Shown in pieces: positions 6,717-20,547 of a stretch of 20,547 nt of DNA (positions are counted from its first letter, which is position 1; the number at the start of each line of letters is the position of its first letter). Under the pieces are notes generated by a model, which had not been told where the DNA came from, ran no database searches, and saw only the letters and a program-made list of their open reading frames with translations. This DNA is from a virus, in the IMG/VR virus record IMGVR_UViG_3300030107_003573, positions 1 to 20,547 of that record; one strand, 5' to 3'. The translations under genes were made by a program, and so were the position numbers.

Positions 6717-7185
6717 TACTTAACCTCGCAAATTCATAAAAAGTTTTACTTTCTTCACCGTAATTTTCTACCTCTCTTAAGAAAGTAAAGCCCATCCAGC
6801 GAAGCCATTTAATATGCACCTTATTTCGTGCATCTACATAATTACAAAGAATGTCATATTTACTCTGCATTTTTTCTAATTCTTCTTTACATTGTTTTAA
6901 AAACTGTGTTCTTATTTCTTTAATATCATCAGTACCTACCATCCACACCCAACCTAAATTAAAGTTTTCTTCATGGCCGTCTGCCACTCCAAATACTCCT
7001 ATAGGGTTACCTTTATATTCAATAACTTTAGCATCTGTAGTTACTGCTACGTTTTTATCTAAAACATCTTGAATGTCTGAATGGTTGCCAAATGTGGCAT
7101 ACAACTCTTGTTTATCAGCGTGTCTTAAATTCTTAGCTAAATGCTTAACATCTGATTGTTCAAAATCTCTGACTACTGCGTTCAT
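6709..7185 (-). CDS. gp13-like internal core protein, GNAT-like fold
   Basis: 158 aa. The N-terminal pattern (residues 5-30, with DVKHLAKNLRHADKQEL) and the central GNPIGVFGVADG segment (about 59-70) match the T7 gp13 / DUF2833 family, small phage proteins with an acetyltransferase-like fold. The C-terminal part (VDARNKVHIKWLRWMGF) also has the shape of a GNAT C-terminus, where a helix is followed by the Gly-Phe strand. T7 gp13 is 138 aa and is needed for virion morphogenesis; whether any of these proteins acetylates something is unknown. The start at 7185 is well supported: AGGAGG lies 8 nt upstream (plus-strand 7194-7199), inside the end of the tail tube B gene, and the ATGA overlaps that gene's TGA stop. 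Confidence 0.8.
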   Translation of the reverse strand: MNAVVRDFEQSDVKHLAKNLRHADKQELYATFGNHSDIQDVLDKNVAVTTDAKVIEYKGNPIGVFGVADGHEENFNLGWVWMVGTDDIKEIRTQFLKQCKEELEKMQSKYDILCNYVDARNKVHIKWLRWMGFTFLREVENYGEESKTFYEFARLSNV

Positions 7186-10100
7186 GTATTCACCCTCCTG
7201 CTTCTAGCACTGTATTGTGCTTCATATTCAGCCGACATAAAGCTTACAGGGAAAGGCGATGAAGACGTTATAGTTAGCGTGTACGCATCAGATTTAGTAT
7301 GTATAGGTATTCTAAAGTCACCACTACTCACAGCCGTAGAGCCTTGGGCCGTAGATAAAACATCTGTAGTAGATGTAGTGTGCGTATAGGTGTATGTATT
7401 CGCACGGCCTGGGTTAGTTACTGAAGCTGTAAACGTAGTTGTGTCATCAAAAGAAACGTCGCAAGACATTATTTGAAAACGTCCTGATAGAAGCTGAGAA
7501 GATCCTTGACCTGCTGAACCTCGTATGACTGGTTTAGAGAACTCATACGTCATTGTGTAGTCTACTCCAAACCAAATTGATGATCCTGTCTTATCACCTG
7601 CAATTACAAGAGTACCTGCTGAACCGTTTTGAGTATCGATTGTAAGTTCTGCAGCACCGCCGTCACTATCTGTAGCTTTCGTGTAAGCTTTTATTGCATT
7701 ACCGCTCCAAGTAAATGGTAAGGTAAATGTAGTTTTACTGCTGACAGGAGTGTTGTAGGAAGCTGTAACTGCATCAAATCCTACACCGTCGGTGGCATCA
7801 TAAGATACTCTAGAATCAAGTTTAGTAACAAAGATTGAATTAGAATCTGTAAGATTGTTTTCAATCCTCATTTTATACAGATAAGTTTTACCGCCTGTAA
7901 TTACATCACTAGCTACATAACGCCACTGGCAAAGTACATATAAAATGTTGTCAATTGCGTGTATCCCAATGATTTGCTTTTGATCATCTGAGTCTCCCAT
8001 TAAAGGTAAAGAATATTTAAACCATGCGGACTGTACTCTTTGATTGCCTTTATCTAAATATTTGTACAAATACAAATCTTGCATAGTACCATCAGTTGCT
8101 TCAGGTAAACCTATGATTAGGTTTTGTTGAGGCATTGACGCATACATTTTCCAAGAGTTTGGTATGTATTGTGGTACATGGTCTGCAATATCTACTGAAG
8201 TATAGTTGTCACCTTGAGCATCAAGTACAGCCATTTGGCGCATACCTGAGAACTCTCCGCGATCATAACCGTAATAAAGAGATGAGCCAGACGCAATCGG
8301 AAGTGCGTTTATATTACACTCGTCATAAGAAACTTGCGTTAAGGCTACAGTTTCATTAGATAGTGCAGTACGTCCTGAACCTAACGCAAACTGTTGGGTA
8401 TCAGAAAATAGTATTAAATTGTTTTTGTATGGAACTGCGTGGCGAAGTGTCGCTATTTCATTAGAAGACACTGCTAAATCTATGGGTGCTGTATCGAGTA
8501 AGTCGATAACAGTTGTTCTAAAAAAGTTAAAAAATTCTCCTGTTTCGGACATTACACAGTTTTCACCTGCTAAAAATCCTAGACGGTTTTCGTAGAAAAA
8601 TATGTTGTTTATTTTTTTACCTACAAAAGAAGGGTCTGGGTTTGTGATTTCATCTCCAGCTCCTCTGCTTCCATATTTAAAAGCTGAGTAATCGGATTTT
8701 ATATTAATCGTTACAGCTTCGTCATCTGGATAATCCGTAGCTACGGCAGCACTTAAAGTTAAAGTGACTTTTCCTTCAGCATCAACATCAATCGATTCGT
8801 CTATAACTTTGGTTGCTTCGCTTCCTGTTCCGATATCAAAAACAATTTCAGAATATTTTGGAATTGATAAGAAAGGCGTTAGACCTTTTACAACAATTTG
8901 AGTATCACTTGTTGTCATTGCGTCATCAGGATCATGTATAGCACCTTCAACAGTTTGAGTAGTTACTCTAGGTATTTCCGTGGTACTTGCATTTATAAAT
9001 CCATTTGCGGATTTAAAAAGAAAAGTTCCGTCAGCTTGTCTTATTAAAACATGAGGCACTGTGGCATAGTCAAAACGATACGGAATTTGAGAACCTGTAG
9101 TTTCTACCCACATACCTTCTCCATAATCTTCACCATTTCTAGTTTGAAATTGCAAATAATAATCATCAATATTATTTTCAACATCACCGTCAATTCGTAT
9201 TCTAAATCCATCTGTGCATTGTGCAGGGAGATCTGTTAAATACTGTGTGCGGTCTTTAAAAGCATCTAAATAAGTGTTGCCAACACTGTCTGCTGTAGAC
9301 ATGATAAAATCTCTGTCTTCATCTAAAGGTTTAACTATTATATTACTGTCTTGTTGCGCAAACTCTAAATAGCTGAAATCTGTAGATTGAGTGTATTGAC
9401 CTTTAATTTGTGATGTACCTGAAGGCTTACTGTAATAATAAATTCTTTGACCGTCAGAACGTCTTAACGTAATTTCATATTGTCCTCCACCAACATCAGC
9501 GGTTGTATGAATAAAATAATCAACATTAGTGTCAAAGTAAGTAGAAGTTCTATTTCCAGTATTGGCGTTCACATAATAATATCTAGGGTTTCCAGGTAAA
9601 GACGTAAATTGCACAGCTTTTCCTACAACGGTAAAAGCGTTCTGCGATCCTGAAGGAGTTCCAGAGCCTGGATTAACTTTAATTGCTACAGGACTTAAAG
9701 TAGAACTTCCGTCTTTTCTCCAATCACTTGTAGGAACTGAAGTATCTGTATGGTAAGCATTTCCAGTTCCCCCATTTAAAGCTGTTACTAAATTACTTGC
9801 TATAGTATTTGTTTTAGCATCTCCTGCTGAGTTACCTGTAGTCACTGAATTAGACTGGCCATCTATTTTTACAATATATTCAGTGTTATAAGCAGCTTGT
9901 TTTAGTGTAACTAAACCTTGAGAACCGAATCTAGATGTTAATTCAGAGTGCATCTTAACTTTTCTCTCAGTGTTGACTATAAAAGTAACATCTCCAATTG
10001 TTAAAAATTTAAAAGCAGTCTTAGGGTCGAGAGCTTTTAGATACTCTCTAGGAGTTGTTTCTATTCTTGTATCAGTGGTTACTGAATCGACACCTGCTGT

Positions 10101-10955
10101 AAGACCGTTTTCTCCAAAGTTGTAGATTTGCATATCGCCATCATTTGCTGTGGAAACTCCTGTTCCTAAAGTCATATCAGTGTTTCCTGCCGTACCCTCA
10201 ACATCTTGAACTAATACAACATCTCTACTAGAAGCTAACTCAGTGCTTCCTGAAGAGTAGTCAGGGTGGTTTGTCGGCAGGTCACCTTTAGTTAAATTAA
10301 TGTCAAAAGCGCATCTTAAAGCTGTTATTGAAAGACCACTAGCTGCTGAACTATTGATTGCATCTGTCAATTCTTGCGCTCTGAATCCTGTACCTGCGTC
10401 TGAAGGAAGTTTAACGTAAATACCAATGTCATACGTTACACCGTCAGCTACTCCTCCTGTATTGAATATGTCTCCAGTAGAAGCAGATGTTGATGTCCAA
10501 TAAAAACGAGCTACATATCCAAAAGAATCTACTAAATAAATAGAATCAGTACTGTCAGGACTATAAACTCTGACATGACCTACAGCTTTTACACCTTGAG
10601 TAGTAAACTCCTCTCCTGATACAGCCTGATCGTAATAAACAGTAGCTTTAGAATTGTTAACTAAATCTACTATTTCTAACTCACCGTCATCTAAAAAAGT
10701 AGGCTTAACAGTGACAAGATACTTTTCCCCTGAATCTCTGTTAATAACGTGAGAAGAAGTGTCTGAAGCTTTAAGACCTGTAACAGCAGTAAAATCATCC
10801 GTCATAAATTCTGTCGGATGACGTTTCATCAAGCCTTCTACAGGAGAGGGGTATGCATTAGTTTGTTGTGCGCAGTGCGTTGGACTTCTTAACGCATCTG
10901 CTTGTTGCGATACCCCACTTAAAAGATTAGGTAAAGAAGAGTTAAGTATGCCCAT
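7182..10955 (-). CDS. Tail tubular protein B (T7 gp12-like nozzle), enlarged with inserted modules
   Basis: 1257 aa against 794 aa for T7 gp12. The N-terminus (residues 1-50, with LPNLLSGVSQQADALRSP) is diagnostic of gp12, as are TPREYLKALDPKTAFKFLTI (301-320), AYNTEYIVKIDG (355-366) and the block beginning FVGKKINNIFFYENRLGFLA near residue 775. The protein forms the distal tail nozzle, below the gp11 ring, and controls DNA release. Residues about 165-290 are an insertion relative to T7, with VVLVQDVEGTAGNT followed by a Gly-rich end, resembling repeated structural modules found in marine phage virion proteins. The C-terminal 200 residues are Thr/Ser-rich beta-type sequence. The start overlaps the stop of tail tube A (TAATG), and the stop overlaps the gp13-like start (ATGA). 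Confidence 0.93.
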   Translation of the reverse strand: MGILNSSLPNLLSGVSQQADALRSPTHCAQQTNAYPSPVEGLMKRHPTEFMTDDFTAVTGLKASDTSSHVINRDSGEKYLVTVKPTFLDDGELEIVDLVNNSKATVYYDQAVSGEEFTTQGVKAVGHVRVYSPDSTDSIYLVDSFGYVARFYWTSTSASTGDIFNTGGVADGVTYDIGIYVKLPSDAGTGFRAQELTDAINSSAASGLSITALRCAFDINLTKGDLPTNHPDYSSGSTELASSRDVVLVQDVEGTAGNTDMTLGTGVSTANDGDMQIYNFGENGLTAGVDSVTTDTRIETTPREYLKALDPKTAFKFLTIGDVTFIVNTERKVKMHSELTSRFGSQGLVTLKQAAYNTEYIVKIDGQSNSVTTGNSAGDAKTNTIASNLVTALNGGTGNAYHTDTSVPTSDWRKDGSSTLSPVAIKVNPGSGTPSGSQNAFTVVGKAVQFTSLPGNPRYYYVNANTGNRTSTYFDTNVDYFIHTTADVGGGQYEITLRRSDGQRIYYYSKPSGTSQIKGQYTQSTDFSYLEFAQQDSNIIVKPLDEDRDFIMSTADSVGNTYLDAFKDRTQYLTDLPAQCTDGFRIRIDGDVENNIDDYYLQFQTRNGEDYGEGMWVETTGSQIPYRFDYATVPHVLIRQADGTFLFKSANGFINASTTEIPRVTTQTVEGAIHDPDDAMTTSDTQIVVKGLTPFLSIPKYSEIVFDIGTGSEATKVIDESIDVDAEGKVTLTLSAAVATDYPDDEAVTINIKSDYSAFKYGSRGAGDEITNPDPSFVGKKINNIFFYENRLGFLAGENCVMSETGEFFNFFRTTVIDLLDTAPIDLAVSSNEIATLRHAVPYKNNLILFSDTQQFALGSGRTALSNETVALTQVSYDECNINALPIASGSSLYYGYDRGEFSGMRQMAVLDAQGDNYTSVDIADHVPQYIPNSWKMYASMPQQNLIIGLPEATDGTMQDLYLYKYLDKGNQRVQSAWFKYSLPLMGDSDDQKQIIGIHAIDNILYVLCQWRYVASDVITGGKTYLYKMRIENNLTDSNSIFVTKLDSRVSYDATDGVGFDAVTASYNTPVSSKTTFTLPFTWSGNAIKAYTKATDSDGGAAELTIDTQNGSAGTLVIAGDKTGSSIWFGVDYTMTYEFSKPVIRGSAGQGSSQLLSGRFQIMSCDVSFDDTTTFTASVTNPGRANTYTYTHTTSTTDVLSTAQGSTAVSSGDFRIPIHTKSDAYTLTITSSSPFPVSFMSAEYEAQYSARSRRVNT

Positions 10956-11569
10956 TATCTAACTACATTTCCTCTATTTACTGTTCTAAGGGTGTCATAG
11001 TGGTCAAAGATAGAATGATCAGCAGTATCGCCTTCCCATTCTTTTAAATCTGCAAGCGCACGGAATTCATCTTTAGTATTAAACGTGTGATGATTCCCTG
11101 AACCTACCATACGGTCTTGAAATATCCTTGCTGCTCTTAAAGTGATGTAACGCTGTGCAGGTTGTGGAAGACCTCCGAAATCTAAGTAATAAACAATAGT
11201 AGCTTTTACATTGTTTTCAAATTCATAAGTACGGTCTTTTTTATCATAAAGTCTCCACTCACCGCCAGTGTATTTCATAATAACATCTAGACCATTAGTG
11301 TTTTCAGGTTCTAAATCAATACGAGCTACATTGGTATCTAAGACAATATGCTTATCACTTGCAGGAGACAGCTCTACATCGTATTCAGTGTTAAAGTGCC
11401 AACCTTGAGCTTCTACTTCTTTAGTAACTTCATCCAGGATCTGAACAGCCATTACTACGTCAGCAGAAGAATTAGCTGAAATAATAGAGTCAGTAGTAGG
11501 TGTTTCACCTATCACAGATAACATTGTGTTAACTGCCTCTAATTGAGTAGTTCTTCCTGGAACAGCCAT
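10955..11569 (-). CDS. Tail tubular protein A (T7 gp11-like adaptor)
   Basis: 204 aa, close to T7 gp11 (196 aa). The N-terminal LEAVNTMLSVIGETPTTD (residues 10-27) is the hallmark of gp11, and EVTKEVEAQGWHFNTEYDVEL (48-68) is the second conserved block. Gp11 forms the dodecameric ring joining the portal to the tail nozzle. The ATG at 11569 lies one base after the stop of the preceding 146-aa gene, and the stop overlaps the tail tube B start (TAATG), so all three genes are read as one transcript. Confidence 0.93.
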   Translation of the reverse strand: MAVPGRTTQLEAVNTMLSVIGETPTTDSIISANSSADVVMAVQILDEVTKEVEAQGWHFNTEYDVELSPASDKHIVLDTNVARIDLEPENTNGLDVIMKYTGGEWRLYDKKDRTYEFENNVKATIVYYLDFGGLPQPAQRYITLRAARIFQDRMVGSGNHHTFNTKDEFRALADLKEWEGDTADHSIFDHYDTLRTVNRGNVVR

Positions 11570-11570
11570 G

Positions 11571-12011
11571 TTAGTAATTTACAATGATAAGTACGTCTTT
11601 GTCATCTGCTCCAGTTACTTTTACAGATAGCATTGGGGGCATACAATCACCTCCAATAAAACCTGCACCTGTACTAGCAGGCACTACTACGTTGTAACCG
11701 ACACCTATGTTTGAAGCTGTAAAACTTGCTTGCATTTTCATATAACCTGTGTCATCTGCTGTGTCAAAGTCGTTTGTTGATGTAGCTGAGTCAGCTGCTC
11801 CTTCAGCTAAAAGAGAAGGAATGTAATACTCTGCTGCTGTGTTACTCTCTACATGAACCCAAACTGATTTTGCTCCGTGTAGATCGATAGGTGTAGTGTA
11901 CTTATTTTGAGTGGCCTCAGTTAATCTGTAAACCAATGTTTTAGGTCTACGACCTTTTGATGTCGCTTCGTACCTTTCATGTACCAATGTCAGTGCTTCT
12001 GTTGCTGCCAT
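11571..12011 (-). CDS. Unknown 146-aa virion-module protein, possible head decoration or completion protein
   Basis: I do not recognise a family with confidence. The 146-aa chain is beta-rich by composition, with short Val/Thr/Tyr strands separated by small-residue loops, and it ends in a strand-like DKDVLIIVNY. It has no Cys-pair motif, no membrane segment and no signal peptide. It lies between the major capsid gene and tail tube A, where many podoviruses keep a head decoration or small head-tail protein, so such a role is the best guess from context alone. The start at 12011 (MAATEAL) is preceded by an AT-rich stretch without a good ribosome binding site, just downstream of the hairpin described at 12031-12062. 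Its stop is one base before the gp11-like ATG. Confidence 0.7.
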   Translation of the reverse strand: MAATEALTLVHERYEATSKGRRPKTLVYRLTEATQNKYTTPIDLHGAKSVWVHVESNTAAEYYIPSLLAEGAADSATSTNDFDTADDTGYMKMQASFTASNIGVGYNVVVPASTGAGFIGGDCMPPMLSVKVTGADDKDVLIIVNY

Positions 12012-12030
12012 AATATAATATTTTATTTAA

Positions 12031-12062
12031 GGGGTGATGGAGGGCATCCAAAGACACCCCCC
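12031..12062 (-). terminator. GC-rich hairpin behind the capsid gene, possible partial terminator
   Basis: Read on the minus strand, about 20 nt after the capsid stop codon, GGGGTG pairs with CACCCC around an inner GATG/CATC hairpin; the two foldings share bases. The following sequence is TTAAATAAAAT, a poor U-tract, so a strong intrinsic terminator is unlikely. The position is that of the T7 late terminator, directly behind gene 10, which lowers tail-gene expression relative to capsid. It could also be an RNA-processing or stabilising stem. Confidence 0.4.
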
Positions 12063-12082
12063 AAGAAAACCACCAGGATTAA

Positions 12083-13135
12083 TTATCCGTCGATGGTAAG
12101 AAGAACTGAAGCTTCAGGACGTAGAACGCCATGACCCATCGCGTATTTAGCGACCATAAGCGTAGATTGACGCTCGATCATGTATTCTTGCTCAACAGCC
12201 AAATCTAATAATTTAACTGTGCCAACCGCTGATTTGTGGAAGATAATACCCCACACATCATCGTCATCTTCACCTGAATAATCGTTTAGTGAGTTAACAC
12301 CAGTAACGTTATTAGTGTGAGAATCTTCATGCTTGACATTGTTGGATTTGTAAATTTCAAATCCTGCAACCATTGGTACTACACCTGAGCCGAAGCCTGA
12401 ACCACCAATGTCTGAGTTAGCTACAGATGTAGTGATATCAAACGCTGTACCTGCACCACCTGATAGTAGTGAGTAGTACAAAGTAGGTGTAAGAACAACA
12501 AAGCGATCTTGGTCAGGAACATCGTTCCCATCTAAAATTGCTGCTGCTTCAAACAAGTGAGTAACAAGCGTAGCTGAAGTAACAGAACTTTCTGCAACGC
12601 CACTACCACCGATAGACAATTGACCGCCACCATCTTTGTAAGGTGCAGCAAGACCTGAAGTCAATGCACCGTTAATGACAGAGCGAATTAAGTGTCGGTC
12701 AGCTTGCTTGGCAAGAGCAGCACCCATTTGGCGAGTGTATTCTGCTCTGTAGTCATAATGACTTTTTGCCTCGTCAATAGATGGGATCAACTGAGGAACA
12801 ACTAGTAAGTCATCAATACCGATGGTTTTTTCACCGTGTTTGATTACTGAGTAATCGTATTCAGCTGCTCCATCTGCGGGAGTACCGTTGTTTGCACCAT
12901 TATCAGTTATTACTGATGTACCTGGAGTGTGATAGTCAGCAGTGGTTGTACCCAGCACAGGAAATTGTGCAGATTTCCCCTGCGCTATAGATCTGACTGT
13001 ATGAAGAGGCATCATCACGTTGAACTCGTCAAACGCTGCCAATACCTCACCTGAGAATTGTTTGAGGAACAAAGCATCAGCAACACCAGTTCCTGATATC
13101 TGTCCTCCACGACCCGTAATGTCCGTGTATGCCAT
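12083..13135 (-). CDS. Major capsid protein (T7 gp10-like, HK97 fold)
   Basis: 350 aa, near the T7 gp10A size (345 aa). Clear family blocks are ALFLKQFSGEVLAAF (residues 21-35), GKSAQFPVLG (53-62), the central HYDYRAEYTRQMGAALAKQADR region, and the C-terminal SAVGTVKLLDLAVEQ and MGHGVLRPEAS segments. It forms the icosahedral shell around the scaffold. The start at 13135 has an excellent ribosome binding site, AGGAGG with a 6-nt spacer (plus-strand 13142-13147), the best in the operon, which suits the most abundant virion protein. It is the only gene in the operon with its own long leader (13136-13261). No frameshifted second capsid form is evident. Confidence 0.96.
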   Translation of the reverse strand: MAYTDITGRGGQISGTGVADALFLKQFSGEVLAAFDEFNVMMPLHTVRSIAQGKSAQFPVLGTTTADYHTPGTSVITDNGANNGTPADGAAEYDYSVIKHGEKTIGIDDLLVVPQLIPSIDEAKSHYDYRAEYTRQMGAALAKQADRHLIRSVINGALTSGLAAPYKDGGGQLSIGGSGVAESSVTSATLVTHLFEAAAILDGNDVPDQDRFVVLTPTLYYSLLSGGAGTAFDITTSVANSDIGGSGFGSGVVPMVAGFEIYKSNNVKHEDSHTNNVTGVNSLNDYSGEDDDDVWGIIFHKSAVGTVKLLDLAVEQEYMIERQSTLMVAKYAMGHGVLRPEASVLLTIDG

Positions 13136-13261
13136 AATAAACCTCCTAAAGGTTTAAGAGAAAAAAAGAAAAAATTGTAAAAGAAATAGAATACTGCTTG
13201 GGTCGTAAAGTTATCCTCCGCAGAGGGCCAAACACTTACGCTTAATTCTAGGTTTCTAACA
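13136..13261 (-). promoter_or_regulatory. 126-nt leader of the capsid gene with strong ribosome binding site
   Basis: This is the longest intergenic space in the late operon. In the minus-strand sense it holds a small CCTC-TGCG-GAGG hairpin (about 13216-13227), then a pyrimidine-rich T/C tract (about 13160-13175), then AGGAGG six bases before the ATG. I find no convincing sigma70 -35/-10 pair and no T7-type promoter. It probably serves high translation of the capsid mRNA, and possibly transcription by a polymerase whose promoter I cannot recognise. Confidence 0.5.
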
Positions 13262-13957
13262 TTAGAAAATGTTAGAGACTGAAAGCTTTTGTTCTACTTG
13301 CTTTCTGAAAGCAGGGTCAGTGCGATACAGTGGATTTTGCATATCACGTTTCATTTGATCTAATGACTCGTAAGCATTTGTAATTTTACCACTTGTATTG
13401 CCCTTAACCAGTTTAGGTTGTGTACCAACCTTTTGAGAATAACGAGCTTGCAATCCTCGAATTGCACTCATTACCTTGACTTGGTCACCTGACTGTACGG
13501 CTTCATCGTAAACCTTAACTTCTTCAGGTGATAATGTTTCAGATGCCCATTGCATCATATCTCCGTAAGCTTTTTCACCGCCTACTTCGCTGTAAATTTT
13601 CTGAACTTCAGCTTCCTGGATAGCCATTTGACCTTGTATATAAGAATCAACGACATCCTTAGCAATACCCATATTGGCTAAACCTTGATAATCTTCTTCA
13701 GACAGTTCACCATTTTGAGCATAGTTATCGGAATATTGTTGTAATTGTTCAGCAGTAGCAGGTTCAGAAACTTCAGTTGATCCTAGCTTTGATTCTAATT
13801 CGTTATAAGCTTTCGCTAAATCTTCAGCGTTTTCAAACTTTTCAGGAAGCCACTCAGCGCGTTCGCTTTGTGTTTCATTAGTTTCTTCTGTAGCCTGATT
13901 AGGGTCTACAGCAGGTGTTTCCTCTACTGGAATAGATAGTTTTTCAGTTGCTCCCAT
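13262..13957 (-). CDS. Scaffold / capsid assembly protein (T7 gp9-like)
   Basis: 231 aa, acidic and rich in Glu and Gln, with almost no Cys or Trp and a probably helical, extended chain, as usual for gp9 scaffolds (T7 gp9 is 307 aa). It starts with a disordered Thr/Glu-rich stretch (residues 1-35), continues with WLPEKFENAEDLAKAYNELESKLG (36-59), a pattern common in scaffolds of this type, and ends in a basic C-terminal helix (about 200-225), which in scaffolds contacts the capsid protein. It lies between portal and capsid, the standard place. An AGGAGG inside the end of the portal gene lies 11 nt before the ATG. The ATG follows the portal stop by 3 nt. Confidence 0.9.
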   Translation of the reverse strand: MGATEKLSIPVEETPAVDPNQATEETNETQSERAEWLPEKFENAEDLAKAYNELESKLGSTEVSEPATAEQLQQYSDNYAQNGELSEEDYQGLANMGIAKDVVDSYIQGQMAIQEAEVQKIYSEVGGEKAYGDMMQWASETLSPEEVKVYDEAVQSGDQVKVMSAIRGLQARYSQKVGTQPKLVKGNTSGKITNAYESLDQMKRDMQNPLYRTDPAFRKQVEQKLSVSNIF

Positions 13958-13960
13958 AAT

Positions 13961-15508
13961 TTATGCGCCCTCCTGCGCTTCGATTTGAGCTTGAGTATTG
14001 TTAGCAGAGGTCATCGAACGCATAGCTTCAGGCCCTAATTGTTGAGCCATTTGCATTTGTTGAGCTTGTTGCATCTCTGCTTGGATTTCCTCTTGAGAAC
14101 GTACGAGACCTTCAGTTTCTATACCAAGTGCGGACGCACGACGTTCTAAATATTCACTTACATTTACATATTGCCCTAACGCTTCAGGGCCTAATACTTG
14201 TGCAATTCCTGCTACAAAAGAATCTAGTTTATTCAGATCCTGACCACGACCTAAAGCATCTATACCTGTAACTACTACAGGAGTTACAAAATCTTTAGGA
14301 AGTTTTGGTAGCCTTTTACCTTTTTCCATTCTATGCATAAGAATGCGTACTAAAGGTAATTGGAATTCTTGACTTAATGATGAGTATACACCGCCTAGTT
14401 GACGCTCTAAACTTTGAGTAACAAGTCGAACTTCTTCAGCAGTGACACGTTCCGCTTTGCGGATTGCTCCTTCTGTGAGCATAAAAGCGTAATTTAAACG
14501 CTCTACAATTTGGTTTATAGTTTCTAAAGCTACACGGAAATCAGCGTGTTTCTGAACTTGTAGCGTAGTTACATCTCCTGCGTTACCTTCTACAATTGCG
14601 CCATTTTCAGATTTAGAGAGAGTGCGCTTGCGAGTCGTGCCATTTGGCGCAACCATAAATAAAACCTTTGCACTAGCTGCTGCTCCTTGAACAATAGCCG
14701 TTGACAATCCTTCAAGAGATTCTAAATCACCTTGATATTGCTCAACAAAGCCTCTGGCATAGTCGTGACCATCTACATGGTTTAAGCCTAACGCCATGTA
14801 AGGCAACTTATCTTTCGGATATGTGCCGTAAGAATCCTCAAGACGGATTCCATTTATCTCTTGAAATACTTCGTATGTAGTGTCGTTAATGGAGGAGACG
14901 CAAGTATATAGATCAACGGAATCCTTTTCTGAGTCTTCTCCCTCTAACGTAGCTAAAATTTCTTCGGGTAAATGATTAAGAGATACTGTCTCTTTAGTCA
15001 CTATTTTATCTACATTTCCCATAGGATCACGCTTAACAATGTAACGTGACAAATGGAAAACACGCATCCCACCTTCTTCAGGGATGTGAATTAAAACATT
15101 ACCTGCAATTATTAAATGTTTGAGAGCTTCAAATAAAGATACGCGAAAATTGTTAGATTCTACTTCACGCATTACTTCTCGCTCTATATCAGCCAGAGAC
15201 CTGTCAATTTCATTCTGCACCTCATCCATCCCTTGTATTTCACGCTTGGCTTTACTATCGAGCAGTAAGCGGAAAAAAGGAGCATTAGGCGGTAACAAAC
15301 TTGTCAACAGCGCATTAGCAAGGGAATTGACACCTCTAGCACCTACACTTTGGTACGGCGTAACAAAACGTGTACTTTCTCCTGCGCCCTCATCTGGGAT
15401 AAGAGTGGGCAGGGTCAAACGCGCCGCTTGTCTTGCACGTTCAAGTACAGGAGTACGGTCGACTTCACACTTTGTGTACAAGCCTTTTGCTGTTTTGCCG
15501 TATGACAT
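13961..15508 (-). CDS. Portal protein (T7 gp8-like head-tail connector)
   Basis: 515 aa; T7 gp8 is 536 aa. The start MSYGKTAKGLYTKCEVDRTPVL, the LTLPTLIPDEG block (residues 32-42), YQSVGARGVNSLANALLTSLLPPNAPFFRL (52-81) and ERVTAEEVRLVTQSLERQLGG (353-373) are all characteristic of the gp8 family. The C-terminus (about 470-510) is rich in Gln, Met and Ala. Twelve copies form the ring through which DNA is packaged by the terminase and to which the gp11-like ring binds. The gene is separated by 6 nt from the preceding short gene and by 3 nt from the scaffold gene. Confidence 0.95.
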   Translation of the reverse strand: MSYGKTAKGLYTKCEVDRTPVLERARQAARLTLPTLIPDEGAGESTRFVTPYQSVGARGVNSLANALLTSLLPPNAPFFRLLLDSKAKREIQGMDEVQNEIDRSLADIEREVMREVESNNFRVSLFEALKHLIIAGNVLIHIPEEGGMRVFHLSRYIVKRDPMGNVDKIVTKETVSLNHLPEEILATLEGEDSEKDSVDLYTCVSSINDTTYEVFQEINGIRLEDSYGTYPKDKLPYMALGLNHVDGHDYARGFVEQYQGDLESLEGLSTAIVQGAAASAKVLFMVAPNGTTRKRTLSKSENGAIVEGNAGDVTTLQVQKHADFRVALETINQIVERLNYAFMLTEGAIRKAERVTAEEVRLVTQSLERQLGGVYSSLSQEFQLPLVRILMHRMEKGKRLPKLPKDFVTPVVVTGIDALGRGQDLNKLDSFVAGIAQVLGPEALGQYVNVSEYLERRASALGIETEGLVRSQEEIQAEMQQAQQMQMAQQLGPEAMRSMTSANNTQAQIEAQEGA

Positions 15509-15514
15509 TTAAGT

Positions 15515-15685
15515 TTATGATAAAAGGTTAGTCTCTGATAACGGTATCGTTAAACCTGCTGTGCCTCTTTTCTTATTTCTTCCCTGGTTACGCTCGTTTG
15601 CAGTAACAACTTCCTGAGCCATAGGTGTAGGTGCAGCAGCAGGAGGAAGAGCAGCCTCTTGTTTTGGAGGCTTTGGAGTTGACAT
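15515..15685 (-). CDS. Short Pro/Ala-rich protein upstream of portal
   Basis: 56 aa from the ATG at 15685, starting MSTPKPPKQEAALPPAAAP. Upstream alternatives are ATG at 15697 and TTG at 15709; none has a good ribosome binding site, and I prefer 15685 because MS-x-PKPP starts are usual for the small proteins found in front of many phage portal genes. The N-terminal half is a disordered Pro/Ala tract. The C-terminal half is basic (RNQGRNKKRGTAG) and ends in a short hydrophobic tail, LTIPLSETNLLS, which matches the general form of that family. Function unknown; a minor structural or assembly role is only a guess from position. Confidence 0.7.
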   Translation of the reverse strand: MSTPKPPKQEAALPPAAAPTPMAQEVVTANERNQGRNKKRGTAGLTIPLSETNLLS

Positions 15686-15698
15686 AGAAAGACACATT

Positions 15699-15800
15699 TT
15701 AAAATACAAACATGCCTAACAAGCAGCCTATGATAAACCAGAATATAGACTTGGTGTTGGCAGTTAAAAAGGATGTAATATAATCTTTGAAAGCAGACAT
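15699..15800 (-). CDS. 33-aa single-span membrane peptide
   Basis: Minus-strand ATG at 15800 to TAA at 15699, coding for 33 residues: a short polar N-terminus (MSAFKDYITSFLTANTK) and one hydrophobic segment, about residues 18-33, ending GCLLGMFVF. It starts one base after the stop of the 63-aa gene and fits the tight spacing of the operon, so it is probably real despite its size. Small one-span proteins in this part of phage genomes are sometimes holin-like or spanin-like, but no lysis gene is adjacent and the sequence gives no specific clue. The downstream gene may start inside it or just after it. Confidence 0.6.
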   Translation of the reverse strand: MSAFKDYITSFLTANTKSIFWFIIGCLLGMFVF

Positions 15801-15801
15801 T

Positions 15802-15993
15802 TTAATTTAATATAGATTCGTTTTGCCGTTCGTAGACATCCTCTAAGAAGGAGACTACAGAACTTGCCCCTGCTTTATACCATATTTCACGGTCAGAATC
15901 TTGTAGGTCAGGAGACTTTTCTGGAAAAAGTTTTCTAAGAGCTGCAATTAAATGTATATTTAAAGTTGGTAGTGTTGTTTCTTCTTCGTCCAT
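15802..15993 (-). CDS. Conserved 63-aa phage protein of unknown function
   Basis: 63 aa, acidic. The pattern LIAALRKLFPEKSPDLQDSDREIWYKAGASSVVSFLED (about residues 15-52) is one I recognise from short phage proteins in structural operons: a hydrophobic helix with FPE, then a DREIW(Y/M)-x-AG block and a final helix. No enzymatic residues stand out and no function is known to me. The ATG follows the phosphoesterase stop by one base, and the stop is followed after one base by the next ATG, which supports the reading. Confidence 0.8.
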   Translation of the reverse strand: MDEEETTLPTLNIHLIAALRKLFPEKSPDLQDSDREIWYKAGASSVVSFLEDVYERQNESILN

Positions 15994-15994
15994 T

Positions 15995-16996
15995 TTATAA
16001 ACGTAACAAGTTTTCTGAAATTAATCCCTGCTTATCGAAAAAGCAAAGACGTTGTACTGGTGCGCCACCTTGGGCTAAGAACTCTTTTGCAAAATCATTG
16101 TCAGACTCAGGGCTTCCGCTTAAAAAGAAGTACAAATCGTTATTTAAAACACCAGAAGCGTGTGTGTGGTGGTGACCTACTGACAAATAATTCCAGTCAT
16201 CAATGTTTAATTGCCATCCCATAGCCTTCTTAAAAATGTTAGCAAGTGGCAGTGGGCTTCCTCCGCGTATCTGATCACCATGTACACAAAGGATTCCGTG
16301 GCCACACACCACCTGCTTAACATACCAATCGGTTGATATATCCCACGACACTTTAACCATCCCCGATTTGTCGCAGAGTAATTTTGCAGTTTCATAACTA
16401 ACAAGATCCCAATTGGATTTTCTTGAATGACCTGAATGTTTTAATCCTGTACGTCCGTGATTGCCGTGAACAGCTGCCACTTTAATCTTAGGAACGTAAG
16501 AATACAGCTCACACACGACGTGAGCTATCAATTCAGGCACAGTACGCAACGATTGCGTCCATAGATCGCTGTCAATCTCAAAAGGTTGGCCAGGAAATAT
16601 CGCTTCTCCCTCTACCATATCGCCTTGTAAAGCTATATGTAGGACTCTAGGCTTCTCATTCTTCAAGTATCTCTTTACTTCTTCGGTCAATTTGTGGATT
16701 CTCTTAACAGCTATTTTAGAATTATATGTCGCAGTACGCTTTCCTACTTGCCAATCGGACAAACAAAGCCATGCTTCTACAGGATTCGTCTTCATTTTAG
16801 GCGGTTTCCTAGTAGGCTTTAAAGGTTTTATTCCTTTAATAGCTTCATTTACAGCGTGATTTAGTAGATATTCAGTAGTTTTAAAGTTCTGTATTTTACG
16901 GCAAAGCTTTCTTATTTCTTGCCGTAACCGTTTTATTAAATTTACATCATCGTCTATTGATCCTGCCCATTCTTCAATATCAAATTTTTTGCCCAT
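15995..16996 (-). CDS. Calcineurin-like metallophosphoesterase
   Basis: 333 aa. The metal-binding motifs appear in order: LSDWQVG (79-85, for D-x-H), GDMVEG (125-130, for GDxxx), HGNHGR (177-182, for GNHD/E), CVHGD (237-241) and GHHHTH (274-279, for GHxH). The family hydrolyses phosphomonoesters or phosphodiesters with two metal ions, and members include DNA nucleases of the SbcD/Mre11 type. Here the histidine of motif I is replaced by Gln83. Residues 1-65 are a basic, probably helical N-terminal extension that could bind nucleic acid. The gene lies in the structural operon beside the terminase genes, which hints at a role in DNA processing rather than phosphate scavenging, but the substrate cannot be told. 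The ATG overlaps the stop of the preceding gene (TAATG). Confidence 0.9.
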   Translation of the reverse strand: MGKKFDIEEWAGSIDDDVNLIKRLRQEIRKLCRKIQNFKTTEYLLNHAVNEAIKGIKPLKPTRKPPKMKTNPVEAWLCLSDWQVGKRTATYNSKIAVKRIHKLTEEVKRYLKNEKPRVLHIALQGDMVEGEAIFPGQPFEIDSDLWTQSLRTVPELIAHVVCELYSYVPKIKVAAVHGNHGRTGLKHSGHSRKSNWDLVSYETAKLLCDKSGMVKVSWDISTDWYVKQVVCGHGILCVHGDQIRGGSPLPLANIFKKAMGWQLNIDDWNYLSVGHHHTHASGVLNNDLYFFLSGSPESDNDFAKEFLAQGGAPVQRLCFFDKQGLISENLLRL

Positions 16997-17283
16997 TAGC
17001 CAAAATTAGCCTTTTCATATTCATCAGGTAATCGGGTATTCATCCAATACCTTAGCCCCTCTGCGGAGTTATAACTAACTCCATATTGTTCTTTTAACAT
17101 AGATAAAAGTGACCTGATAGAAAACGCAGTCTTCTTTTCCGCACGAAGCTTTAAAAGTTTTTTAATAGCTTTGACTGCTTCTGGATTAGAATCTAATTCA
17201 CTACGCGAGCTGTTTTTAGTATGATTTTTCGCCCACTCATCTAAAGAAAATGTGGTATCATCCGAATTATCAGCGTCACTCAT
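16996..17283 (-). CDS. Unknown 95-aa protein, first gene of the late operon
   Basis: 95 aa from ATG 17283; a GTG at 17298 in the same frame would add five residues. I know no family for it. The N-terminal 30 residues are acidic and Asn/Ser-rich. The middle (about 38-58) is Lys/Arg-rich (AVKAIKKLLKLRAEKK), and residues 55-80 (FSIRSLLSMLKEQYGVSYNSAEGLRYWM) look like a helix-turn-helix, so a DNA-binding role is conceivable. It is divergent from the small terminase gene with only 18 bp between the two start codons, so it could regulate or act in packaging. Neither start has a clear ribosome binding site. The stop overlaps the phosphoesterase ATG. Confidence 0.7.
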   Translation of the reverse strand: MSDADNSDDTTFSLDEWAKNHTKNSSRSELDSNPEAVKAIKKLLKLRAEKKTAFSIRSLLSMLKEQYGVSYNSAEGLRYWMNTRLPDEYEKANFG

Positions 17284-17301
17284 AGCGCGAGTATACACAT
17301 T
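17284..17301. promoter_or_regulatory. 18-bp divergent junction between late operon and terminase genes
   Basis: Only 18 bp separate the ATG codons of the minus-strand 95-aa gene and the plus-strand small terminase. TATAC, with its reverse complement GTATA, lies in the middle (about 17291-17296), so a -10-like element can be proposed for either direction, but any -35 element would have to be inside the opposite gene. A weak plus-strand pair is TTATCA at 17267-17272 and TATACA at 17292-17297 with 19-bp spacing. No ribosome binding site is visible on either side. Confidence 0.3.
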
Positions 17302-17523
17302 ATGACAAACAATTTACAAGAATTATTGGCAAAATTGCACGAAGCTGTTGGCAATGAGTTGTTGCAAAGAATTATAACAGGTGATGCTACAAGTGCTGAT
17401 TTATCAGTTGCTACTAAATTTTTAAAAGACAATGGTATTAATGTCGATGTAGAAGACAGTCCACCAATTATGAATTTAGTTAAGGAACTGCCATTCATTG
17501 ATGAAGAAAAGAAAGCAGAGTAA
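17302..17523 (+). CDS. Terminase small subunit (DNA maturase A, T7 gp18-type)
   Basis: 73 aa. The sequence NLQELLAKLHEAVGNELLQRI, followed by GDATSADLSVATKFLKDNGI (residues 27-46), is typical of the short small terminases that accompany gp19-type large subunits; T7 gp18 is 89 aa and much more divergent. The small subunit recognises concatemer DNA and modulates the large subunit during packaging. The large subunit gene begins inside its last codons (overlap about 23-26 nt), in line with translational coupling. It is on the opposite strand from the virion genes, unlike T7. Confidence 0.85.
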   Translation: MTNNLQELLAKLHEAVGNELLQRIITGDATSADLSVATKFLKDNGINVDVEDSPPIMNLVKELPFIDEEKKAE

Positions 17524-19189
17524 AGTAGTAGTTCCAGAAGAACTGAAAGATTTTAGAAACTTTGTATATCTAGCATGGGAGCATTTGGGATTACCTGATC
17601 CTACGAAGGTTCAATACGATATTTCAAAGTATCTACAGCACGGTCCAAGGCGTAAAACTATCTGTGCATTCCGTGGAGTAGGTAAATCCTATCTAACATC
17701 AGCCTATGTAGTGTGGAAATTACTATTGAACCCTGATATTAACGTACTAGTAGTATCCGCGTCTAAGACACGCTCTGACGATTTCTCTACATTTACACAG
17801 CGTCTTATCGCTGAAATGCCTATTCTGGAGCATTTAAGACCAAAAAAAGGTCAACGTGACTCAAAAATAGCGTTCGATGTAGGCCCTGCATCTGCTGCTC
17901 ACGCGCCTTCTGTAAAATCAGTTGGGATTACAGGCCAACTTACAGGTTCACGCGCTGACATAATTGTAGCGGATGACGTTGAAAGTTTGAACAATAGCGC
18001 AACTCAAGGAATGCGTGAGAAACTTTCCGAGCTAGTCAAAGAATTTGAGGCGATTATTAAGCCTGGAGGAGAGATTACTTTCCTAGGAACGTACCAAACA
18101 GAGATGTCGTTGTACACAGTTCTTCCTGATCGTGGCTACGAGACAAGAATTTGGCCCGCAAGATACCCAGTAGAGAAAAAACTACCACGTTACGGCTCAA
18201 TGCTTGCTCCGCTCATCTATGATGAGTTGGCTGAAGACCCCGCGCTCGAAGGTGACCCTACAGACCCAGGAAGATTTGACGATTGGGAACTGAAAGAGCG
18301 CGAGGCTTCTTACGGTAGGTCAGGATTCGCAATGCAGTTTATGCTTGACCCTAGCTTATCGGACGCTGAAAGATATCCATTAAAACTCTCCGACCTCGTT
18401 GTGATGGACATTAACTCTGAATTAGCGCCTGAAAAGGTCATTCATTCGTCAGCTCCTGATAAGCAACTTACTGACCTACCTGTTCTTGGGTTTGCAGGAG
18501 ACTATTTCTACCAACCTACGCAAGTCATAGGGGATTGGGTTGAATATAAAGGATCTGTAATGGCGATTGACCCTTCTGGTAGAGGTTCGGACGAAACCTC
18601 CTACGCTATAGTGAATGTTCTTAACGGATTCCTATGGGTTCTCGAATGTTCAGGAGTAGAGGGCGGATATCAGGAAGAAACCATGCAAACTCTTGTAGAT
18701 ATTGCTAAAAAGAACCGAGTTAAGCAGATTCTCGTAGAATCTAACTTTGGTGACGGAATGTTTACTGAACTACTTAAACCATATCTACGAAAGACGTATC
18801 CAGTGACCGTAGAAGAGGTGAGACACCACACTCAGAAAGAAAAAAGGATCATAGACACTCTAGAACCTGTAATGAATCAGCACAAACTGATTGTGTCTCC
18901 ACAGCTTATAGATAAAGATTTTGAATCTACCAAGCATTTGCCTCCTGAAAAAGCTCCTCAGTACAGACTATTTCACCAAATGACACGGATTACCAAAGAC
19001 CGTGGAGCTTTACTACATGACGATAGGCTTGATGCACTATCTATGGCTGTCCAGTATTGGGTAGATGCCGCAGGAAAAGACGCAGATGAGGCTATTAAAG
19101 ACGCACGAGAGGAAAGGCTTGATAGAGATTTAGAGAAATTTATGGAAGACGCTGTAGGATTCGCTACAAAATCTGACAATTGGTTCTAG
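17501..19189 (+). CDS. Terminase large subunit (DNA maturase B, T7 gp19-like)
   Basis: 562 aa from ATG 17501; an in-frame TTG at 17498 is an alternative, and AAGGA at 17482-17486 is rather far from both. Counting from that TTG, the ATPase domain has Walker A FRGVGKS (58-64), Walker B IIVADDVE (155-162) and a conserved GQRDSKIAFDVGPA block (118-131). The nuclease domain has AIDPSGRG (356-363), ESNFGDGMF (414-422) and HDDRLDAL (507-514), with the acidic residues expected of an RNase H-fold nuclease. Similarity to T7 gp19 (586 aa) is obvious along the whole length, so the phage probably packages from concatemers in the T7 way, with terminal repeats. The stop TAG at 19187-19189 shares CTAG with the stop of the convergent methyltransferase gene. 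Confidence 0.97.
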   Translation: MKKRKQSKVVVPEELKDFRNFVYLAWEHLGLPDPTKVQYDISKYLQHGPRRKTICAFRGVGKSYLTSAYVVWKLLLNPDINVLVVSASKTRSDDFSTFTQRLIAEMPILEHLRPKKGQRDSKIAFDVGPASAAHAPSVKSVGITGQLTGSRADIIVADDVESLNNSATQGMREKLSELVKEFEAIIKPGGEITFLGTYQTEMSLYTVLPDRGYETRIWPARYPVEKKLPRYGSMLAPLIYDELAEDPALEGDPTDPGRFDDWELKEREASYGRSGFAMQFMLDPSLSDAERYPLKLSDLVVMDINSELAPEKVIHSSAPDKQLTDLPVLGFAGDYFYQPTQVIGDWVEYKGSVMAIDPSGRGSDETSYAIVNVLNGFLWVLECSGVEGGYQEETMQTLVDIAKKNRVKQILVESNFGDGMFTELLKPYLRKTYPVTVEEVRHHTQKEKRIIDTLEPVMNQHKLIVSPQLIDKDFESTKHLPPEKAPQYRLFHQMTRITKDRGALLHDDRLDALSMAVQYWVDAAGKDADEAIKDAREERLDRDLEKFMEDAVGFATKSDNWF

Positions 19190-19695
19190 TAAAGGCGTAC
19201 AACTTTGCCTATTAAATCTCCATTATTTACAGCATCCTCTAAAGCAATTAAATTCCTTAATCCGTAGGCAATTAAACAACTAGGAGCAGCAGCTGTGTTG
19301 GTAGTGTGACCCTCTACATGGTGAAATTTAAGCCTACCTTTAAGGAATAAAATACCATGCGCTCTATTAAAGACCTGCTCATAAAAGCCAATAGTATCTG
19401 TCCTAGCAAATATTAAAGCAATCCCATCACCATGATCAGCAAGACGAGATATCCATTTAAAGGTGTGTTTACCATAAGGAGGATTACACCATATACGGCC
19501 TTTCCATTCCTGAGATAAGCCATTATGGGAAATATTATACCCTTTAGTTGCGTGAGTAAATGGAGGCTTTATAGGTTGACATGGATCTAAATCAAAGACA
19601 CCAAGTGCTTTAGGGATGTAAGGAGGTGTTAACCACTCATCCTTATTCTCTGTATTAGTATTAAAGTTCTTAACCTTTTTACTCACATGGTGCAT
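19186..19695 (-). CDS. DNA N6-adenine methyltransferase (phage Dam family)
   Basis: 169 aa, the usual size of the phage Dam family (PF05869 type). Motifs seen are DEWLTPPYIPKALGVFDLDPC (residues 19-39), WCNPPYG (69-75, the catalytic NPPY of N6-adenine methyltransferases), LIFARTDT (94-101), LFLKGRLKF (about 117-125) and APSCLIAYG near 137-145. It methylates adenine in host or phage DNA, which could protect phage DNA from restriction or mark it; the target site cannot be read. No partner endonuclease is visible, so it is probably an orphan enzyme. The gene converges on the large terminase with a 4-bp overlap. The start at 19695 follows an AT-rich region with a weak AAGTGA ribosome binding site. 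Confidence 0.92.
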   Translation of the reverse strand: MHHVSKKVKNFNTNTENKDEWLTPPYIPKALGVFDLDPCQPIKPPFTHATKGYNISHNGLSQEWKGRIWCNPPYGKHTFKWISRLADHGDGIALIFARTDTIGFYEQVFNRAHGILFLKGRLKFHHVEGHTTNTAAAPSCLIAYGLRNLIALEDAVNNGDLIGKVVRLY

Positions 19696-19754
19696 TATAT
19701 ATCACTTATATAACCCTTTTTAGAATAATTTTATATTTATTTTTATAATAATAA
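19696..19754. promoter_or_regulatory. AT-rich promoter region, perfect plus-strand -10 box
   Basis: A nearly pure A/T stretch lies between the divergent methyltransferase gene and the structured RNA. TATAAT at 19744-19749 on the plus strand is a perfect -10 box, and the -35 side is weak (TTTAGA or TAGAAT near 19719-19726). Transcription would start near 19756, a dozen bases before the first paired element of the RNA. The minus strand also offers -10-like TATAAA sequences for the methyltransferase gene. Chance TATAAT matches are common in such AT-rich DNA, so the evidence is mainly position. Confidence 0.45.
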
Positions 19755-20275
19755 TAAATAAACCCTTACTGGAAGAGCCACCACGAACCCCAAAATAACA
19801 CAGAATTTTTAGAATTCTAGTGGTGAGTATATGAATATTTTATATTGGGAATTATAGTTCAGTTCATTAATAGGAAATATATTTAATATTCTTGAGATAT
19901 TAGTAGGTCGGTTATATTAAAATAAAGGCTGTGAGTTATTATTCTCACACTCCGAGCGAACAGGTTCTTGGTTGTACCTCAACGCTCCTTCTAGGTTTCT
20001 CTTTCTCCTTTACTAGAAGTGCTGAAGTAGGTTCGGTTATTTCCTACAGAGGCGGGGTGTGGGCCTCTCGTGATCTGCCACGCATGTAAAAGCCCTGTAG
20101 ATTGCGAGAGTTTTCTATTTAAACTACATCCCTTGTGACCTATTTTATTAGGCGAGGCACTGATGTAGTTTTTATAGGCCCACAGTGAGCCACCCTTAAA
20201 AAGACTCTAGTATTACAGGCTTCGACAGTGGGTGTGAAGTACAATTTCACTGAGGGGGTGGCTTACTTTTCCAGG
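19755..20275 (+). ncRNA. Candidate large highly structured noncoding RNA (about 520 nt)
   Basis: Hand folding of the plus strand gives a chain of helices. They are: 19779-19784/19820-19825 with inner 19802-19807/19813-19818; 19833-19839/19885-19891; 19930-19935/19944-19949; 19954-19958/19983-19987 with inner 19962-19965/19976-19979; 19988-19994/20013-20019; 20027-20031/20043-20047; P1 20058-20064/20178-20184; P2 20065-20076/20099-20110 (12 bp); P3 20121-20130/20162-20171 with inner 20031-type helices at 20131-20135/20153-20157 and 20139-20142/20149-20152; P4 20185-20197/20254-20266, enclosing 20234-20240/20244-20250. CTGGAAG at 19769-19775 can pair with 20268-20274 and close the whole. Seven G-U pairs in P2, P3, P4 and the inner P4 hairpin would be A-C mismatches on the other strand, so the RNA is read in the plus direction. 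There is no open frame of note. Size and complexity recall GOLLD and ROOL of phages, but I cannot confirm membership. Confidence 0.7.
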
Positions 20276-20360
20276 CTCATTTTTGACAAAAAAATGTGAT
20301 CAGGTATCGCTCTATCGAGCGCCGAAAAACCCCCCCAAAACCTTCTGAAATCGGTCATCC
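20276..20360. other. Short noncoding stretch between structured RNA and repeat cluster
   Basis: It holds an A/T hairpin (CATTTTT/AAAAATG, 20278-20296), a TTGACA at 20283-20288 without a matching -10 box, a 5-bp hairpin CGCTC-TATC-GAGCG (20309-20322) and a run of seven C at about 20330-20336. No gene is seen. Whether the RNA ends before it or continues into it is not decidable by eye. Confidence 0.4.
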
Positions 20361-20409
20361 AATTTGCAACATCCTACCAGGGGGTCGTTTTTATAGGATG
20401 TCGCAAATT
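20361..20409. repeat. 16-bp inverted repeat with 17-nt spacer
   Basis: The left arm (20361-20376, AATTTGCAACATCCTA) pairs with the right arm (20394-20409, TAGGATGTCGCAAATT) except at one position, A20368 against C20402. That mismatch would be a G-U pair in a minus-strand transcript. The 17-nt spacer is G-rich then T-rich. It may be an operator, an origin element or a transcript stem; it lacks the trailing U-tract of a plus-strand terminator. Confidence 0.7.
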
Positions 20410-20514
20410 AGTATGCCGCAAATTGCCAAAATGGCAGGTTTTTAGCGGCTCGCATTTGTTACCGAAACATATGCCAACATGGCAGATACTCTCAAAAATG
20501 ATTGCAACATCCTA
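20364..20514. repeat. Three copies of TTGC(A/G)ACATCCTA
   Basis: Identical 13-mers TTGCAACATCCTA lie at 20364-20376 and 20502-20514, and a third copy with one change lies in reverse orientation at 20394-20406. In addition, CGCAAATT is repeated directly at 20402-20409 and 20417-20424. Repeats of this density in noncoding phage DNA usually mark binding sites of a phage regulator or replication initiator. Confidence 0.65.
20424..20484. promoter_or_regulatory. Two TGCCA-N3-TGGCA palindromes, candidate operators
   Basis: TGCCA-AAA-TGGCA lies at 20424-20436 and TGCCA-ACA-TGGCA at 20472-20484, each followed by G, 48 bp apart start to start. A perfect 5-bp half-site on each side of a 3-bp centre is the form of an operator for a dimeric repressor or activator. 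Both sit in the repeat cluster at the edge of the unseen right arm, where early promoters may be. As RNA they would be two small hairpins, so a role in RNA is an alternative. Confidence 0.55.
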
Positions 20515-20547
20515 GCCCAAATTTTCGTCGGTTTCCGTGTTTTTTAT
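20485..20547. other. Right-hand end, noncoding, no gene recognised
   Basis: Apart from the third 13-mer copy (20502-20514), this stretch shows nothing gene-like on either strand. GGTTTCCG near 20530-20537 is partly complementary to ACCGAAAC at 20461-20468. Confidence 0.4.

Follow-up and report, generated by a model that had tools for sequence, protein, structure and literature searches.

A candidate family of structured noncoding RNAs flanked by terminase and the right terminal repeat in a group of T7-like phages

A structured element of about 510 nt, located at positions 19770 to 20280 on the plus strand of a T7-like phage genome fragment, is maintained in close relatives of the phage, and we consider it very probable that it represents a conserved plus-strand RNA structure. 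The architecture, a four-way junction formed by the helices Pa, H1, H2 and H3 together with optional P6 and P7 hairpins, is well supported and is kept by compensatory change. The more specific reading, that a group of T7-like phages encodes here, after terminase and before the right terminal repeat, a previously undescribed family of plus-strand noncoding RNA, has in our judgement an even chance of being correct. Its basis is that changes in the helices are compensatory, that the wobble pairs are strand-specific, and that synteny among relatives is strict. Few viruses have been studied as well as the T7-like phages, which abound in the sea; in the literature searched, a structured RNA of this kind was not found in them.

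The whole stretch of DNA analyzed, here called the window, is a linear virus record of 20,547 bases, and its genes for the portal, major capsid protein, nozzle, gp13-like protein, and small and large terminase subunits identify it as T7-like. The features that define the Autographiviridae are present, with T7-type terminase, portal, and capsid genes in the window, which is a genome fragment, and the single-subunit RNA polymerase read from its relative L005. The structural block lies on the minus strand, and the terminase genes lie on the plus strand at the right of the window. The structural genes (2 to 17298) are inverted relative to the terminase and, in L005, relative to the early genes; T7 differs in having all its genes on one strand. 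The gene for the small terminase subunit (17302 to 17523, plus strand; Pfam PF11123, E 5e-16) is followed by that for the large subunit (T7 gp19 or DNA maturase B type; 17498 to 19189, plus strand; Pfam PF22530, E 1e-41; PHROG 38, E 2e-120), which served as the upstream landmark. The nearest named phages by terminase are the Roseobacter phages CRP-227 and relatives (63%) and LUZ100 (58%). Between the terminase and the element lies a minus-strand gene for a Dam-like DNA adenine methyltransferase (19186 to 19695; Pfam PF05869), which is missing from this place in L002 to L005 and L048 to L052. L005 is a close relative (33 kb; terminase 97% identical) with the gene order tyrosine integrase, T7-like RNA polymerase, and then primase-helicase, DNA polymerase, and exonuclease. 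Its integrase gene (L041:3207-4196) stands immediately 5' of the polymerase gene (L041:4189-6561), an arrangement suggesting that L005 is probably a temperate T7-like phage.

The preliminary description had proposed an RNA gene of roughly 520 nt at 19755 to 20275, devoid of a credible protein gene, folding almost completely into consecutive helices, and preceded by a perfect TATAAT. In line with this, no open reading frame of at least 60 amino acids is present in 19700 to 20300, and no conserved reading frame was seen when a coding function of the element was looked for. The plus strand of 19755 to 20275 folds at -165.2 kcal/mol, compared with -131.6 kcal/mol (sd 6.05) for dinucleotide shuffles (z -5.55; equaled by 0 of 100 shuffles), and the opposite strand folds less strongly (z -3.71). 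The RNA-like unit is best redrawn as about 19770 to 20280 (z -5.70), and its counterparts in relatives span approximately 260 to 510 nt. Near-complete folding was borne out in part: the excess stability is held by the 3' two-thirds, whereas the AU-rich 5' third is near chance, with z of -0.4 to -1.3 only for 200-nt windows starting at 19701 to 19901. When the whole window was scanned on both strands in 200-nt windows (n = 408), the one at 20001 (plus strand) ranked third (z -5.4). The best-defined part is 19944 to 20110, containing the four-way junction and a hairpin with a conserved octaloop (z -4.1); the subregion 19940 to 20120 has one dominant structure, in which the minimum free energy fold (frequency 0.43) coincides with the centroid (z -4.1). 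The 200-nt fold that exceeds its shuffles most in the whole window (z -6.0) lies elsewhere, at 13248 to 13447 on the minus strand, just upstream of the major capsid gene and on that gene's coding strand, and is possibly a regulatory or processing structure.

The TATAAT is indeed present at 19744 to 19749, but it lies inside an AT-only stretch in which the promoter scan placed no site. As a sigma-70 promoter it was rejected, the scan yielding 3 sites in the region against 2.9 expected, i.e., chance level. Sequences upstream of the element differ among homologues, and no repeated phage promoter motif was identified upstream of the RNA in the genomes of the window, L005, and L051. The sequence ATTACCAATCTCTTACGGAGA before the 5' end of L004 is suggestive of a LUZ100-like (ATTACCACACAG..GGA) or T7 promoter, but a search of the same three genomes gave no repeated copies.

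Homologues are confined to close relatives and fall into group A, comprising five genomes (the window and L002 to L005), and the more diverged group B, comprising six contigs (L048 to L052 and L272). The four group-A relatives of the window came from a terminase search (88 to 97%) and carry the homologous region directly after terL. A wider terminase search supplied L048 to L052 (68 to 69% identity), which have approximately 260 to 370 nt of noncoding sequence at the equivalent place. L272 was pulled in by a pattern search using group-B RNA motifs alone, and a terminase gene was later seen directly upstream of the match.

In group A, the four-way junction is closed by Pa, whose strands at 19944 to 19953 and 20054 to 20063 are paired in 98% of cells. 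Within it, the H1 hairpin (19954 to 19987; GAGC/GCUC with inner AGGU/ACCU) is 100% paired with a compensatory U-A/C-G change, and it is followed without a gap, as the preliminary description had claimed for these abutting helices, by the H2 hairpin (19988 to 20019), which is 100% paired, has two pairs changed on both sides, and bears a conserved pyrimidine-rich loop, UCUCCUU. The variable H3 hairpin (20021 to 20053) has an outer stem that is 100% paired, with both-side changes in 2 of 3 pairs. Taken together, Pa and H1 to H3 are paired in 99.2% of cells, versus 39 to 55% when the partners are slid; both-side changes occur in 6 of 24 pairs, and the covariation score was reached by 0 of 500 shuffles. 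Immediately downstream, the P6 hairpin (20065 to 20110) consists of a variable stem, an internal loop, a GC/GC clamp, and the octaloop AUGUAAAA (20084 to 20091). The octaloop, AUGUAAAM, is invariant and closed by GC/GC, and 5 of 7 stem pairs show compensatory changes (covariation score again reached by 0 of 500 shuffles). Compensatory change among homologues, which had been put forward as support for a conserved RNA, was thus seen both in the group-A junction and in P6.

The remaining parts of the element vary more between relatives. P6 is missing from L002, and P7, a long hairpin at 20184 to 20267 with the stem AGUGAGCCACCC/GGGUGGCUUACU, is missing from L003; in the window, L002, and L005, P7 pairing is maintained with different letters. 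A tmRNA-like sequence, GGCUUCGACAG, near 20219 to 20229 was rejected as a candidate, as it occurs in the window alone and within the variable P7 loop. L005 has an almost identical copy of the hairpin AACUACAUC/GAUGUAGUU (20122 to 20170), but there the tip of this hairpin contains the P6 octaloop. The near-identity of the arms AACUACAUCCCUUGUGA.../...GGCGAGGCACUGAUGUAGUU in the two genomes, although P6 is nested inside only in L005, suggests that hairpin modules have been exchanged between relatives. At the borders of the element, RNAalifold paired P1 in group A (19775 to 19779, GAGCC, with 20274 to 20278); P1 reads GAGCC/GGCUC in the window and AAGCC/GGCUU in L002 and L005, and with few varying columns its support is modest. 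The motif ATTAATAGGAAATATAT (19866 to 19882, plus strand) has a similar form in groups A and B.

Of the six group-B contigs, four were matched in the syntenic position by a covariance model built from group A alone: L049, L050, and L051 with 24.4 to 21.8 bits (E 3.5e-4 to 2e-3 in 0.66 Mb) and L272 with 24.7 bits. The best other matches in the first search with this model reached about 17 bits (E about 0.05). At the core of L048 and L052 the model reached no match; by eye, their layout is comparable, with H1 as GAGC/GCUC, the closing helix as UCCAU/GUGGA or CUCUAC/GUAGAG, and additional hairpins. These two contigs were placed in group B by synteny, motifs, and hand-drawn helices, and H2 and H3 of group B are not aligned column by column. 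The H2 loop UCUCCUU is not kept in group B. When a group-B model (R2) was run on the wider set, the only contigs to score were L048 and L050, on which it had been trained; its syntenic match in L004 was not significant (E 2). Single-sequence folding stability is also uneven, with z of -0.9 to -1.2 for L004, -1.6 for L002, -1.9 for L003, and -1.3 for L051. The four-way junction Pa-H1-H2-H3 with compensatory changes, which we take as the criterion for membership of the proposed RNA family, is present.

The family is small. BLASTN of the element against named phages gave no match, and neither the group-A nor the group-B model found the RNA in other T7-like phages (terminase 55 to 67%), which mostly have small protein genes or unrelated sequence at this place. 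No model match was obtained at T7-like terminase loci of bacterial and archaeal assemblies, prophages included, and pattern matches in L024 and L027 to L029 were attributed to chance. Since in T7-like phages further removed the equivalent place is taken up by protein genes or by sequence without structure, T7-type packaging as such does not require the element.

To determine which molecule is under selection, one-sided changes were compared between strands. In the group-A core, six separate column pairs have such a change to plus-strand G-U, and no column pair has one to A-C. The plus-strand consensus fold of the core has 13 G-U and 1 A-C, and a consensus fold optimized for the minus strand has 1 G-U and 7 A-C; the helices were first defined by plus-strand folding, a possible bias, and an independent minus-strand consensus agrees. 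Helices acting as DNA would be expected to tolerate G-T and A-C changes equally, so the observed asymmetry, with plus-strand G-U and minus-strand A-C, points to selection on a plus-strand RNA. An alignment of group B alone (A10), poor in register, is without strand preference.

These results bear most directly on a DNA-level explanation, in which inverted repeats would either take part in genome-end formation as single-stranded or cruciform DNA or be bound by terminase or a recombinase. A hairpin-primed step has been proposed for T7 left-end formation, and the element is in the right place, beside the repeat junction. The equivalent gap is likewise rich in hairpins in T7, T3, phiYeO3-12, and a Klebsiella phage (z -2.4 to -3.9, the phiYeO3-12 and Klebsiella phage stretches extending past the junction, with the junction element unmatched there). 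Furthermore, a 15-bp motif at the 5' end of the window's element, GCCACCACGAACCCC (19777 to 19791), is found in the opposite orientation in the L048 intergenic region and, with one letter different, in L052, which would suit a double-stranded DNA site. However, the asymmetry of G-U and A-C is unexpected if the DNA strands are equivalent, and the multi-branched architecture and conserved loop sequences go beyond a simple palindrome. We therefore regard a DNA-level element as unlikely. In the same gap, a hairpin GGGAUUC...CAUCCC with varying stem letters follows gene 19.5 in T7 (39539 to 39760, L266:640-861), T3, phiYeO3-12, and the Klebsiella phage; loci L274, L275, and L276 accompany L266 in this comparison.

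The position of the element relative to the genome end was well defined. It lies directly 5' of AAAAATSTGAGNGGGTAT...CCCCC, the terminal-repeat (concatemer) junction element (AAAAATGTGAtcAGGTAT...CCCCCCC; 20288 to 20337, plus strand), which aligns with T7 (repeat start 39778) and LUZ100 (repeat start 37100); the junction AAAAATSTGAG...CCCCC is the element at T7's own end. The repeat begins 17 nt past the start of AAAAAT in T7 and 29 nt past it in LUZ100, and from these offsets the terminal repeat of the window is predicted to start at about 20307 to 20319. Repeats of TTTGCRACATCCTA occur within the predicted terminal repeat of the window (20320 to 20547) and within that of group-B L049 (4608 to 5057), and the minus strand of 20320 to 20547 has a strong fold as well (z -5.7). 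Every homologue has terL upstream, and every one has the junction element except L004, whose contig ends before the junction. The distance from core to junction is about 15 to 225 nt and differs within group A mostly by P6, P7, and one other hairpin. In the window's genome, where the Dam-like gene stands between terL and the RNA, the RNA remains at the junction rather than beside terL. In the L051 record (IMGVR_UViG_3300040985_000616), the contig ends are alike, with AGCTCCTAAGGTTTATGTGTAAAA at position 1 and, one letter changed, near 38975 (L261:1 and the end of L262). As its ends repeat each other, this 39-kb contig may be complete although classed as linear.

We tentatively favor a role at the genome end, to which we assign slightly less than even weight, since the RNA stays directly at the junction even with a gene between it and the terminase. 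Transcription would run rightwards to the junction, probably late, and would be due either to the single-subunit polymerase of the phage or to readthrough; late expression would fit the place beside the terminase. Judging by its place alone, the RNA could assist pausing of the RNA polymerase or recruit terminase, act in the cutting or processing of concatemers, or serve packaging or the replication of ends. Transcription into the junction is favored by parallels in relatives, including the folded gap described above. The promoter phiOR is located between the terminase and the repeat in T7 and phiYeO3-12. Previous work in LUZ100 mapped the phage promoter phi8 directly after the terminase and the terminator T21 at the repeat (PMC10134795), and phage DNA has class II pause/termination sequences (ATCTGTT) at its concatemer junction (PMC11617373). 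The T7 right end, from phiOR to the concatemer junction, shares the genome place, the junction element AAAAATCTGAG, and a folded stretch upstream, but it is unmatched by the group-A model and holds gene 19.5 and another fold there. Similarly, the LUZ100 phi8-T21 transcript resembles the proposed one in its flanking promoter and terminator but lacks excess folding (z +0.3 to -1.0) and is unmatched by the model. A stronger version, in which this clade uses the RNA as a working part of T7-type packaging or end formation, appears improbable; the RNA might, for instance, be a scaffold that arises from transcription into the junction and gathers paused phage RNA polymerase, terminase, and prohead. 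If true, this would give an RNA component to a type of packaging machinery believed to work without one. A conserved RNA beside the concatemer junction makes an RNA role in T7-type end formation or packaging testable, and it adds an Rfam-sized family with a consensus structure, an octaloop motif, and a defined genomic place.

Alternatively, the element could be a trans-acting regulatory or assembly RNA, an sRNA or a GOLLD/ROOL-like RNA, that merely sits at the genome end and uses an available late transcript. The preliminary description had suggested GOLLD, ROOL, IMES, or a new class with the same way of life; the results support a new class of structured phage RNA, whereas the Rfam matches are absent. 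Up to E = 1, no Rfam family was found in the window beyond chance matches, and the homologous element was unmatched in loci L002, L003, L004, L048, L049, and L052. GOLLD is frequently longer than 800 nt, and IMES RNAs are marine and of uncertain host. GOLLD and ROOL are large structured phage noncoding RNAs with conserved and variable domains, frequently near tRNA islands (PMC12286853). The element resembles them as a large structured RNA of phages or prophages with both kinds of domain, but it lies beside the terminase and terminal repeat without tRNA neighbors, a search of the window yielding no tRNA gene. GOLLD was rejected on its unmatched covariance model (up to E 1), the missing tRNA, and the length of about 510 nt; ROOL was rejected on its unmatched model in the window and the six homologous loci and the missing tRNA. 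The models for IMES-1 to IMES-4 were unmatched in the same loci, the marine origin being the likeness. The phi29 pRNA is a phage RNA that binds the portal or motor, is needed for packaging, and is encoded near a genome end; the Rfam packaging-RNA model was unmatched, and the small terminase subunit here is T7-type. Size and complexity would suit a trans-acting RNA, and the conserved loops (octaloop and pyrimidine-rich H2 loop) suggest binding partners, with the H2 loop able in principle to pair with Shine-Dalgarno sequences (AAGGAGA). Nevertheless, such a role would leave unexplained why every homologue in which that end is present has the element strictly next to the terminal repeat, and the absence of the H2 loop from group B and the Rfam result also speak against it, making it doubtful.

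Finally, the late terminase transcript could end in the element as a structured 3' untranslated region or a terminator, giving exonuclease protection or a stop before the repeat. This reading would suit an element that begins approximately 20 to 110 nt past the terL stop in homologues other than the window's genome, but it is very unlikely because in the window the structure is kept although the antisense Dam-like gene parts it from terL, and no intrinsic terminator was found on the plus strand within the element.

Group-B L052 also carries, in its early region, two candidate hammerhead ribozymes of type II, separated by about 500 bp (L052:3223-3318 and 3716-3815, plus strand). At 32 bits they fall short of Rfam's gathering score, 37 (E 3e-4 for the searched stretch), and they have the conserved CUGAUGA and CGAAAC cores.
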